A DNA stretch of 64,000 nucleotides, taken from contig NZ_CP032418.1 in NCBI RefSeq assembly GCF_003595195.1, positions 2,228,001-2,292,000 of the forward strand, read 5' to 3'. The DNA comes from Paenisporosarcina cavernae. GTDB lineage: Bacteria; Bacillota; Bacilli; Bacillales_A; Planococcaceae. Positions within the stretch are counted from its first letter, which is position 1. Every line of letters begins with the position of its first letter. The notes under the pieces are model-generated. The model was given only the letters and a program-made list of their open reading frames with translations. It ran no database searches and was not told the DNA's origin. A program made the position numbers and the translations under genes. Of this stretch, positions 29,339 through 51,415 are shown piece by piece.

Positions 29339-29590
29339 CAATACGAAAAACGCGTTGACGAGGGATTAGTAAAGATTCTCGAAGGATTTAGAGAGGAAGC
29401 TGAGTGGTGAAAGGCTTCTATCCGCCGACTCTTGAACCTACCTTCTATAGTATGACTATGAAAATAGTTCACGGCGACAGTCGTTATCTTGTAAAGAGTG
29501 TGAAGCTTTGCTTCAAATGAGGGTGGTACCGCCAGTTACATCTGGTCCCTCGTTTGTTGCAGAGCTTTTTTTATTCCAATAAAAGAGGTG
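29339..29590 (+). ncRNA. T-box leader (tRNA-Pro sensing) upstream of proS
   Basis: This untranslated leader of about 250 nt carries the T-box sequence AGGGTGGTACCGC at 29520-29532, followed by a stem (GAGGG...CCCTC, about 29519-29552) and a T7 run near 29567. The likely specifier codon is CCT (Pro) at 29437-29439 in the context GAACCTACC. Uncharged tRNA-Pro would bind both the specifier and the T-box bulge and let transcription reach proS. The specifier position is inferred from context, but it agrees with the downstream gene. Confidence 0.9.
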
Positions 29591-46348: not shown

Positions 46349-47107
46349 TTATTGCTTGGTGAAATGAACAATCACATCCCGTAAAAATTCCGCTGTACCT
46401 GGAACTGTATGATCGTAAAATGCCGTGAAGCGTTCATCGTCCACATACATTTGCGCTAGCCCTGCATGTGCTTCTTTGGAGTATGTCGTCCAGTATCCCA
46501 TCAACCACTTTTTGTGAAGCGCCACCACTTCCCTTGCCAACTCACTTGTTGGGTCTCCATTTTCTTTTGCTAGTGCGAGTTTCGCATCAATTTCTTTCGC
46601 TAAGTCCTTGGCACGTTCCATATCTTCTGGACGTTGCGCAAGAAACTTTGCATTCGCTTCATCTATTAGTTGGTCACCATACTTCGCACGAATTTCTTTT
46701 CCGTAATTTTGCTCGTTCTCTTCAACAAGTTGTGATTTGAACCCTTCAAATTTCTTCTCATTTTCCAATGGTATCCTTCCTTCCTCTTCCGCAATCGACG
46801 CTTCAATATTTTCTAATAGAAGTTCGATTTGCTGTTTTCGTTGTAGAAGTGCTTTTTTATGGGAATGAAGTGCAGATGCTCGATCAAATGTAGGTTCCTG
46901 CATAAGTTTTTTAATATCCTCCAGTGACATCTCCAGCTCCCGATAAAACAAAATTTGTTGTAAGACGTTTACTTCGTGCGTTCCATAAATTCTGTAACCT
47001 GACGAATTAATTCGAGCAGGAATGAGTAACCCGATTTCATCGTAATAGCGTAGCGTACGTGCACTTACGCCAGCTAATTGAGATAGTTTTTGGATCGTAT
47101 ATTCCAT
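46349..47107 (-). CDS. MerR-family regulator with TipAS drug-sensing domain
   Basis: This 252-residue transcription activator has a MerR winged helix (YTIQKLSQLAGVSARTLRYYDEIGLL), a dimerising coiled coil (about 75-115) and a C-terminal TipAS domain (about 125-250, with GYWTTYSKEAHAGLAQMYVDDERFTAFYD). TipAS domains bind thiopeptides or other hydrophobic drugs; Mta in B. subtilis is a relative. The ATG at 47107 lies 8 bp after AGGAGG. It is autoregulated, judging by the operator in its own promoter. Confidence 0.88.
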   Translation of the reverse strand: MEYTIQKLSQLAGVSARTLRYYDEIGLLIPARINSSGYRIYGTHEVNVLQQILFYRELEMSLEDIKKLMQEPTFDRASALHSHKKALLQRKQQIELLLENIEASIAEEEGRIPLENEKKFEGFKSQLVEENEQNYGKEIRAKYGDQLIDEANAKFLAQRPEDMERAKDLAKEIDAKLALAKENGDPTSELAREVVALHKKWLMGYWTTYSKEAHAGLAQMYVDDERFTAFYDHTVPGTAEFLRDVIVHFTKQ

Positions 47108-47127
47108 CGTATGCACCTCCTAACTTG

Positions 47128-47172: not shown

Positions 47173-47201
47173 TTGACAAACTTCGAAAAGTATGCGATAC
47201 T
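47173..47201 (+). promoter_or_regulatory. Plus-strand promoter of the putative ncRNA
   Basis: TTGACA (47173-47178) and GATACT (47196-47201) are separated by 17 bp, divergent from the MerR promoter. No gene start or ribosome binding site follows. Confidence 0.65.
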
Positions 47202-47207
47202 ATCTTA

Positions 47208-47465
47208 GTTAACTTGTAAGATAGCAGATAGGCGTTGATTTTTGGCATCTGCTTGATGTTTTGTAGGAACACTTATTCACACTGGCGCGACTATAGGGTC
47301 GCAAGGACGTAAAAGAAGGTAGGGTTTACGTTGCTTAAGGAAAACAACCAGTGGATTCTTGACCGCGGCAATACATTCTCAATTATTTGAAATGATTATT
47401 TCAACACAATTTTGTTATCTTATATAATCAAAGGGATGCCCCATTACTGGAGCATCCCTTTTCCA
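47208..47465 (+). ncRNA. Putative structured non-coding RNA of unknown class
   Basis: A transcript of about 255 nt is implied by the upstream promoter and a terminator hairpin at 47431-47460 (AAGGGATGC/GCATCCCTT, then TTTTCC). It folds into a 5' hairpin (GCAGAT 47224-47229 with ATCTGC 47247-47252). A closing stem, CACTGG/CCAGTG (47280-47285 with 47348-47353), encloses two perfect hairpins: GCGAC/GTCGC (47287-47302) and ACGTAAA/TTTACGT (47307-47331). I could not match it to 6S, SRP, tmRNA, RNase P or a riboswitch class. The only ATG (18 codons, near 47256) has no ribosome binding site. Confidence 0.5.
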
Positions 47466-47526
47466 ATTTTATCGGGCTTTTAAGTTTTTCTTTTTCGAAA
47501 AGCTATACTAACTTACTCATTGATCC

Positions 47527-48168
47527 TTAACGCGCTCTAACAATCTCTATGAAATCTGTCATACGCTCCGAGTCGATCACTTGCTGACTACATTTCAAGC
47601 TATCCTGACAAATATAATTGCCTCGCTTTGTGTAAGCACCATTAGCATTTCCTTTTACAGCTGCCGTGAATAATCCGAGTTTGTCATGCTTATGGCAAAT
47701 GGCACAAATACCATCTTTTTTGGAGACTTCAAATGTCCCATAAGTAGGAAGGTGCTTTTCATTCTGCCAAAAAATAAGACACTTCTTATCCGAACCTTTG
47801 TCATTCCACCCTAAAAACGTCTGCAATCGCCAGTCAATTTCTGTGAGATTAGGTATACTCACTTTCTTCAGCTTTGGAAAAAGCTTTCGAATTTTTTCGT
47901 CCGTCAGTGCGGGAAATGGAATGACAAACGGTTGAAGTTTCGCCAAAAATTGTTCTCCTGATTGTTTATCCGTTACGTGTTGAATGGAGTTCAACATATC
48001 TTGTTGCTCCTCGGATAAGTCGGGCAATAAATTACGTACAGATTCCTCACGCACACTAAGTAAAGCTGCAAGAACATTTTTGTCCTTACTTACTCCAGAT
48101 GCGTTTACTAATATTTTTACTTGATCCGTTAAAAAGTGAAATTGATCACTACTTAAAAAAGCTTCCAT
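47527..48168 (-). CDS. EF-G-binding protein, FusB/FusC-like
   Basis: This 213-residue two-domain protein resembles FusB-family proteins, which bind elongation factor G and free it from fusidic-acid-stalled ribosomes. The N-terminal helical bundle is followed by a C-terminal treble-clef zinc domain with four cysteines (ICAICHKH and YICQDSLKC). Chromosomal homologues are common in Bacillales and need not give clinical resistance. The ATG at 48168 follows GGGTG; a GTG at 48177 overlaps the yeeI stop. It is the second gene of a pair with yeeI. Confidence 0.82.
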   Translation of the reverse strand: MEAFLSSDQFHFLTDQVKILVNASGVSKDKNVLAALLSVREESVRNLLPDLSEEQQDMLNSIQHVTDKQSGEQFLAKLQPFVIPFPALTDEKIRKLFPKLKKVSIPNLTEIDWRLQTFLGWNDKGSDKKCLIFWQNEKHLPTYGTFEVSKKDGICAICHKHDKLGLFTAAVKGNANGAYTKRGNYICQDSLKCSQQVIDSERMTDFIEIVRAR

Positions 48169-48169
48169 A

Positions 48170-48889
48170 TTACTCACCCAAATCTACGTTGTGATACACC
48201 TGTTGCACATCTTCCAAATCTTCAATCGCATCAATCATTTTTTCAAATTGCGCTGCGTCCTCTGGTGATAATGAAATATCATTTTGAGCAAGCATCGTTA
48301 ACTCCGCAATCGAAAACTCCGTAATTCCTGCCGTTTTGAATGCTTCCTGCACTGCATGGAATTGGTCTGGTTCCGCGTAAACGATTACAGCATTATCTTC
48401 TTCTAATACATCTCGTACATCTACATCCGCTTCTAGCATCATGTCTAGGACTTCCTCTGCAGTCTTACCTTCAATCCCAATAACAGCAGTCGCATCAAAC
48501 ATATACGCAACGGAACCACTGACACCCATGTTACCACCATTTTTACCAAAAGCAGCACGTACATCAGATGCCGTGCGATTCACATTATTCGTTAGCGCAT
48601 CTACAATCACCATTGAACCGCTCGGGCCGAATCCTTCATAACGAAGCTCATCGTAGTTCTCTTCTGAACCACCCTTTGCTTTCTCAATCGCTTTATCAAT
48701 AATATGTTTTGGCACACTATATGTTTTTGCGCGTTCTAACACGACTTTCAATGCACGGTTTGACTCAGGATCCGGCTCCCCTTGTTTCGCAGCCACATAT
48801 ATCTCACGGCCAAATTTCGCATAAATTCTACTTGTATTCGCATCTTTTGATGCTTTCTTTTCTTTAATATTATTCCATTTACGACCCAT
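48170..48889 (-). CDS. yeeI: YebC/PmpR-family protein YeeI
   Basis: This 239-residue protein is of the YebC (TACO1) family. It begins [35 protein letters not shown] and shows the family block [28 protein letters not shown]. Long called transcription regulators, YebC proteins are now also linked to relief of ribosome stalling on proline-rich sequences. The length matches B. subtilis YeeI. It is followed without a gap by the EF-G-binding gene, which suggests a shared translation-related role. Confidence 0.92.
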
Positions 48890-50074: not shown

Positions 50075-51274
50075 TTAATCTTTCCCGTGGTCGTTGGATT
50101 CTTTTTTATCTTTCTCATTGTCTCTTTTTTCCGATGCTTTGCTTTCAGATTTATCTTCTTTATCTTCTTTATCTTCTTTATCTTCTTTTTTCGTTTCACG
50201 TATAGATTCTTTTTCATCTTTCTCGTCTGCTTTTTCTTGTTTCTTCGTTTCTTTCACTTCTGCTTTTTCTTGCTTCTTCGATTCTTTTACTTCTGACTTT
50301 TCTTGTTTCTTTCCTTCTTTTTGTACATTTTTGTGTTCAGTTGTTGGTGCTGTTGCTTGTTTTTCCTTGTCCTTTTCGGGTTCAACTTTCACTGTAGAGC
50401 TATCCGTACCGCTTACAGTTGCACTTGAGTTAGTTTCTGCAGACTCAGTATTCTCACTAGAATCCGTCGTTTCTGTAGTCACTTCTTCCGCTACAACTTC
50501 ATCGGCAGGTTTTTCATCTACTGTTCCATTTTCTTCTGTGGTAGATTCTGTATCTTCTGCCTCTGTCGAGTCTTCTTCATTTTCTTGAGCAAGCAGTTTT
50601 GCCAATTTTTTTGACATCTTCTTTTCTAATTTCTTTTGTGCTTTTTCAATATTTTTCGTTAAAGATTCGCTAGCTTGTTCACTTCCTACTTTTTCAAGAG
50701 CAGCTTGCAACGCTACAATATTTTGAGAAAATTTTGCTATAAGTTTTTCTTCTGGTGTTAATTCTACGTCCTCAGCAGGAGTTTCTTCTGTCGTATCGGT
50801 ATTTTCAGTGACTTCTTCTGTGGAATCTGTTTCTTGAACAGCTTCCTCATCAGTGGTCGATTCTTCATTTACAACTTCATCCGAACTTGTTTGTTCTGAT
50901 GAGCCATCTTCAGAGACTTCCGTTCCTTGCTCCAGTTGATCAAATGCGTCTGTGTATTGCTCGATAGCCGCTTCTAACGTTTCTACCGCTTTTTCTTCTT
51001 CACCCGCATCGTATAGAGCCTCGGCTTCCGCGATCCGTTCAGCAGCAAACTCATTTAATAGTTCGGCTTCTTTTAAATCATCAAACGTTAGTGCTAATTG
51101 AATAGATTCTTTTAGCTCCTTTAGGAAGTAAAAGAAGTCACCAGGTATAAGTGCTGGTTCTACCACTTCTTCCTCCGCCGCTGCGTCTGTGTTTGCAAAA
51201 GCGGATGTTGTAGATCCTATTGTGAAGATGGCAATTAAAATTGCAAAACTATACTTCCAAGATAATTTACTCAT
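50075..51274 (-). CDS. Secreted acidic DUF5667-type protein under c-di-GMP control
   Basis: This 399-residue secreted protein has a signal peptide ending near SAFANTD, then a DUF5667 helical domain (ALIPGDFFYFLKELKESIQLALTFDD, about 40-115). Two long Thr/Glu/Ser-rich disordered segments flank a coiled part (about 175-235), and a highly charged Lys/Glu tail follows with repeated KKQEK(A/S) and KEDKEDKED tracts. It has no LPXTG or other anchor. Its role may be at the envelope. The mRNA leader carries a c-di-GMP-I riboswitch. Confidence 0.8.
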   Translation of the reverse strand: MSKLSWKYSFAILIAIFTIGSTTSAFANTDAAAEEEVVEPALIPGDFFYFLKELKESIQLALTFDDLKEAELLNEFAAERIAEAEALYDAGEEEKAVETLEAAIEQYTDAFDQLEQGTEVSEDGSSEQTSSDEVVNEESTTDEEAVQETDSTEEVTENTDTTEETPAEDVELTPEEKLIAKFSQNIVALQAALEKVGSEQASESLTKNIEKAQKKLEKKMSKKLAKLLAQENEEDSTEAEDTESTTEENGTVDEKPADEVVAEEVTTETTDSSENTESAETNSSATVSGTDSSTVKVEPEKDKEKQATAPTTEHKNVQKEGKKQEKSEVKESKKQEKAEVKETKKQEKADEKDEKESIRETKKEDKEDKEDKEDKSESKASEKRDNEKDKKESNDHGKD

Positions 51275-51329: not shown

Positions 51330-51415
51330 TTCTTCGGTAGCTCAGCCGCCTTAGAAGACTCTTTAGGCCCGGAACTTTGCGTCCTGATTTTTCAATCAGT
51401 TTGCCTTTTTCGAAA
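51330..51415 (-). ncRNA. Cyclic di-GMP-I (GEMM) riboswitch
   Basis: Reading the minus strand, the aptamer signature appears in order: GGCAAAC (51400-51406), GACGCAAAG (51377-51385), GGCCTAAA (51363-51370) and CTACCGAA (51334-51341). This fits the GEMM-I consensus, including the GACGCAAAG strand and the receptor-type closing loop. It lies 56 bp before the DUF5667 gene. No U-tract terminator separates it from the start, so control may be translational, or a weak terminator escaped me. Confidence 0.85.

Follow-up and report, generated by a model that had tools for sequence, protein, structure and literature searches.

BsrC (Rfam RF01410) is a small RNA encoded between ydaG and ydaH in Bacillus subtilis and has been reported as expressed in B. 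subtilis and P. riograndensis, and no function for it was found in the literature searched. In strand-specific tiling arrays of B. subtilis, the bsrC segment was joined to its upstream gene (Rasmussen 2009, PMC2784878). It tops the sRNA table of Hfq-associated RNAs of this bacterium, with a ratio of 53.6 obtained from a library that was not strand-specific (PMC3574147), and a second B. subtilis match to the Rfam bsrC model is noted in BSGatlas (PMC8208703).

The locus analysed here lies in a 64,000-nucleotide stretch of the Paenisporosarcina cavernae genome (NZ_CP032418.1, positions 2,228,001 to 2,292,000), referred to below as the window. The gap between a MerR-TipAS gene and an EF-G-binding-protein gene contains a plus-strand promoter, several hairpins and a terminator (Table 1). 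The promoter, the hairpins, the CACTGG/CCAGTG pairing and the terminator described in a first-pass annotation of the DNA are all present. The terminator hairpin is bidirectional and serves the convergent EF-G-binding-protein gene on the minus strand. We interpret the locus as a free-standing plus-strand gene for a non-coding RNA that represents the Rfam BsrC family in Planococcaceae and would act in trans through a partner-docking P3 loop, and we assign this reading as a whole a probability of about 0.62.

Table 1. Features of the RNA gene and its surroundings (positions in the window)
Feature	Position	Strand	Basis or remarks
MerR-TipAS gene	46349-47116	minus	Pfam TipAS + MerR
Promoter (TTGACA, 17 nt, TG-n-GATACT)	47173-47201	plus	TTGACA at 47173, GATACT at 47201, extended -10 TG present; 10/12 match; recurs in relatives
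RNA gene, BsrC family, about 255 nt	47208-47463	plus	Promoter/terminator conservation and covariation; ends deduced from promoter and terminator, not mapped
P0 5' arm, closing the whole RNA	47215-47228	plus	Pairs with 47411-47424; MFE fold and end-swap test
TTGGCATC, conserved, single-stranded-looking, planococcal form	47242-47249	plus	Alignment
Rfam BsrC match	47257-47344	minus	69.3 bits, E 5e-10
Conserved core	47258-47355	plus	Covariance model R1, 90.3 bits; overlaps Rfam BsrC match
P1 5' arm	47271-47274	plus	Pairs with 47337-47340; changes on both sides
Near-invariant linker ATTCACACTGGC between P1 and P2	47275-47286	plus	Alignment
P4 (CACTGG 47280-47285 with CCAGTG 47348-47353)	47280-47353	plus	Enclosing stem of the first-pass annotation
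P2 hairpin (47287-47291 with 47298-47302)	47287-47302	plus	97.6% of cells paired; 5/5 pairs double-changed
P3 hairpin (47303-47313 with 47325-47336)	47303-47336	plus	97.2% of cells paired; 7/11 pairs double-changed
P3 loop AGAAGGTAGGG	47314-47324	plus	Consensus AGNAGGNNGGG; 1 base shorter outside Planococcaceae
P1 3' arm	47337-47340	plus	Pairs with 47271-47274
ACCGCGGC, conserved planococcal motif	47362-47369	plus	Alignment
P0 3' arm	47411-47424	plus	MFE fold and end-swap test
Intrinsic terminator hairpin and tail	47430-47469	plus	Hairpin 47430-47461, last letters CCCTTTTCCAATTTT; recurs 3' of homologues
EF-G-binding-protein (FusB-like) gene	47527-48177	minus	Pfam EF-G-binding_N + FBP_C

The only Rfam match in the gap is to BsrC; its score is well above the gathering cut-off of 38 bits, and its strand is opposite to that of the transcript. 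The first-pass annotation had called the RNA unclassified, a label that this strong match, though antisense, takes away. The BsrC family was matched in 45 of 61 relatives, with B. subtilis itself positive as the control. Homology to the published locus was found through B. halotolerans, in which the core lies between ydaG and amj/ydaH on the same strand and scores 79.3 bits against RF01410. Judged from sequence comparison, the RNA very probably belongs to the BsrC family and is very probably encoded on the plus strand, and RF01410 seems to represent its antisense: the locus family is shared, but the strand of the model looks wrong. The family is known, though apparently listed under its antisense strand and with a fold not described before, and the form found in this genome is an extended, planococcal one. 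No description of the plus-strand fold was found in the literature searched, nor did the structured-RNA discovery papers give a match in the searched terms. Elsewhere in the window, a T-box leader (29346-29553, plus strand, 100 bits) and a c-di-GMP-I riboswitch (51333-51415, minus strand, 75 bits) were detected. The latter lies just upstream of a minus-strand gene (50075-51274) whose secreted product, a DUF5667 protein, has a long, charged tail of low complexity, and c-di-GMP may control this surface or secreted protein.

The assignment of the RNA to the plus strand is based on three independent lines of evidence. A plus-strand promoter was found at a near-constant offset, with a mean best score of 10.1 out of 12 and at least 10/12 in 26 of the 36 planococcal homologues, whereas the minus-strand scan gave a mean best score of 7.8, equal to the shuffled mean (7.8), and no homologue at or above 10/12. 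A terminator-type hairpin follows the core in 27 of the 36 relatives when read on the plus strand and in 30 when read on the minus strand; a minus-strand terminator past the other end of the core was found in one of the 36. An RNA with its own plus-strand promoter and terminator, as proposed in the first-pass annotation, is therefore supported. In the Bacillaceae homologues, a sigma-70 promoter was not evident by simple scan. The second line comes from the wobble pairs: in the three helices of the homologue alignment there are 122 G.U cells, which pair on the plus strand only, versus 7 A.C cells, which would pair on the minus strand only. The third line is the gene order at the bsrC locus, with ydaG, the core and ydaH all on one strand in B. 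halotolerans, and the reported joining of bsrC to its upstream gene (PMC2784878) fits the plus strand as well; where the published RNA is concerned, this third line is inferred. Folding alone cannot assign the strand, since both strands fold better than shuffled sequences (z = -3.9 for plus and -4.8 for minus).

In 42 diverse homologues the core forms a three-way junction of the helices P1, P2 and P3, with 89.8% of the cells paired compared to 76.3% in shuffles. Double-change cells in these helices numbered 159 versus 57.5 in the shuffles, and 18 of 22 pairs had changed on both sides. Structures slid along the alignment paired in 36-45% of the cells, a control that favours the tested structure because this was drawn by hand from the same sequences, a dependence that does not affect the shuffles or RNAalifold in the same way. 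RNAalifold, with no structure supplied, returned the same helices, with changes on both sides in 15 of 19 pairs. In P1, the column pair 26-92 occurs as UA, GU, AU, CG and GC, and pairs 24-94 and 25-93 had also changed on both sides. The compensatory changes in stems that the first-pass annotation had named as a test are thus decisively present, and covariation upholds its three-way junction, except that the conserved junction stem is P1 and not CACTGG/CCAGTG. Among the unpaired segments, the linker ATTCACACTGG and the P3 loop stand out as invariant.

The stem P0 closes the RNA outside the core. The duplex between a homologue's own 5' and 3' ends reached -20.3 kcal/mol versus -16.7 kcal/mol when ends were swapped between distant relatives, and the own ends paired better in 31 of 35 cases. 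P4 would either form a pseudoknot with P1 or take its place. It is mostly invariant in Planococcaceae, with C-G to U-A changes in a few loci, and is absent from most Bacillaceae; the swap test was not discriminating for this stem. CACTGG/CCAGTG was rejected as the family junction, as it is not conserved outside the planococcal form. At the site of ACCGCGGC, CCGCGG was found in one of 118 Bacillaceae/Paenibacillaceae loci. The motif is also strongly conserved in a few other families. No internal pairing partner for it was found in the RNA, and pairing with the 530 loop of 16S rRNA was rejected, since 58% of shuffles contain a 9-mer antisense match by chance and the number of 8-mer matches, 5 compared to 4.8 expected, is at background.

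Of the 398 Bacilli genomes searched with the plus-strand covariance model R1, 212 carry the RNA, usually as a single copy and at most as four. In a sample of 299 genomes from across the phylum Bacillota, matches were confined to members of the Bacilli. B. halotolerans, a relative of B. subtilis, has two copies, one between ydaG and ydaH and the other between ydeB and cspC; with two copies, the phenotypes of single deletions could be masked. The neighbouring genes vary: several members of the genus have YebC/TACO1 beside the RNA, other members of the family have unrelated genes there, and many Bacillaceae have ydeB (CarD type) upstream, with csp genes nearby in several. As the MerR-TipAS and EF-G-binding-protein genes are not shared by relatives, neither these genes nor a drug can be linked to the RNA; the connection to the drug-sensing MerR or FusB-like gene suggested in the first-pass annotation is not supported, the neighbours being different in almost every relative examined. 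Homologues adjoin cold-shock protein genes in several families and a DEAD-box helicase gene at one locus; the loci concerned are three from Anoxybacillus and Thermolongibacillus and four others. This may be a cold-shock neighbourhood or may be due to chance.

Several other explanations of the conserved element were considered. One is a cis-acting leader or riboswitch that controls the gene downstream, such as a leader responding to cold shock or to a drug. It would account for the four Bacillaceae loci in which the core lies directly upstream of csp on the same strand, but it is improbable, as the downstream genes differ and are often oppositely oriented, without a conserved same-strand gene; the planococcal RNA stops at a strong terminator ahead of the next gene, which in the window is convergent. 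Still less probable is that Rfam is right and that the functional BsrC is read from the minus strand, with C/U-rich stretches (CCCUACCUUCU and UCCUU) pairing with Shine-Dalgarno regions in the manner of other sRNAs of Gram-positive bacteria. The minus strand is the sole strand matched by RF01410, folds well and has C/U-rich segments that resemble anti-Shine-Dalgarno seeds, yet such a reading would break the 122 G.U cells and lacks a conserved promoter and, in all but one of the 36 relatives, a terminator past the core, and the segments are the antisense of the conserved loop, which accounts for their conservation. The type I toxin-antitoxin label that BSGatlas (PMC8208703) gives to the bsrC match describes what is almost certainly a different kind of RNA: neither a conserved ORF nor a hydrophobic peptide was found among the homologous cores, and the structure is conserved and mostly present once per genome. 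In agreement with the earlier view that the gap holds no convincing ORF, no phase is open across the 98 nt in 133 of 155 homologous cores, and the phase of the few frames that are open differs between cores. A TTG-started ORF (MLK...QW..DRG, or MLK...QW..DRGTESK) behind the Shine-Dalgarno-like P3 loop AGGTAGGG, seen in Planococcaceae loci, was rejected as a coding sequence; its frame is broken in several relatives and in Bacillaceae meets a stop two codons on (TTG TTT TAG). It is probably not translated.

It is likely that the RNA acts in trans, as the first-pass annotation had suggested, because it has its own promoter, a tight structure, an invariant loop and no fixed neighbour. P0 would close the RNA by a long-range stem and the three-way junction would hold P3 out, so that the near-invariant purine-rich loop, together with the invariant linker, could form the site at which a partner docks, this partner most likely being an RNA-binding protein. 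We give this putative docking site about an even chance. Protein docking is preferred since the loop and linker hardly change whereas the stems do, and since the search for complementary mRNA sites revealed none that is conserved. The competing idea, that the P3 loop is the seed of a base-pairing sRNA for particular mRNAs, draws on the loop being the most conserved unpaired part and on the gene being a stand-alone sRNA gene; it is rather unlikely, as a search with exact 11-mers in nine genomes of the genus gave no conserved loop-complementary site other than the antisense of the gene itself. Exact loop-complementary matches in the genus were no commoner than those of the reversed control pattern, and mostly represented this antisense. 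Titration of CsrA by GGA motifs would fit the conserved AAGGA and AGG/GGG motifs, but a sponge of this type is highly improbable, because seven RNA-bearing genomes have no CsrA match and AAGGA is paired within P3 and lost (AGTGA) in the ydaG-ydaH copy.

Among candidate partners of the docking site, Hfq is the only one with published support, in B. subtilis; it may not be a universal partner and is unlikely to be the main one. The distal face of Gram-positive Hfq recognises (A-L)n (PMC10628458), which the Bacillus P3 loop AGAGAGG fits and some planococcal loops (AGCAGGUUGGG) do not. No Hfq match was found in two genomes with the RNA, and Hfq, CsrA and Spo0A, each missing from some RNA-bearing genomes, were rejected as obligatory partners by co-occurrence. 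More speculatively, the RNA might be a general, housekeeping-like RNA of the Bacilli, in which the three-way junction and an invariant protein-docking loop form the core of a novel RNP hidden by an antisense Rfam entry.

A structured RNA present in about half of the sampled Bacilli genomes, including B. subtilis, is thus apparently on the wrong strand in the reference library. If RF01410 is antisense, the annotations, probes and target predictions built on that entry address the antisense; with strand and fold corrected, the function can be tested directly in B. subtilis.

The conserved core is the same as that of BsrC. The Rfam model represents the opposite strand and a single stem, whereas the RNA described here is about 255 nt long, folds as a three-way junction and adds the closing stem P0 and the planococcal extras P4, TGGCAT and ACCGCGG. 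CsfG, or the ylbH element, provides a precedent of a Bacillus RNA motif that was first put on the wrong strand and later reversed (PMC3574147), although its sequence and locus differ and its loops are CU-rich whereas the loop here is purine-rich. Like 6S RNA, the RNA comes from a stand-alone gene that has a promoter and a terminator of its own, and it is closed by a long-range stem; however, it has no Rfam 6S match, and its three-way junction contrasts with the one long bulged hairpin of 6S RNA.
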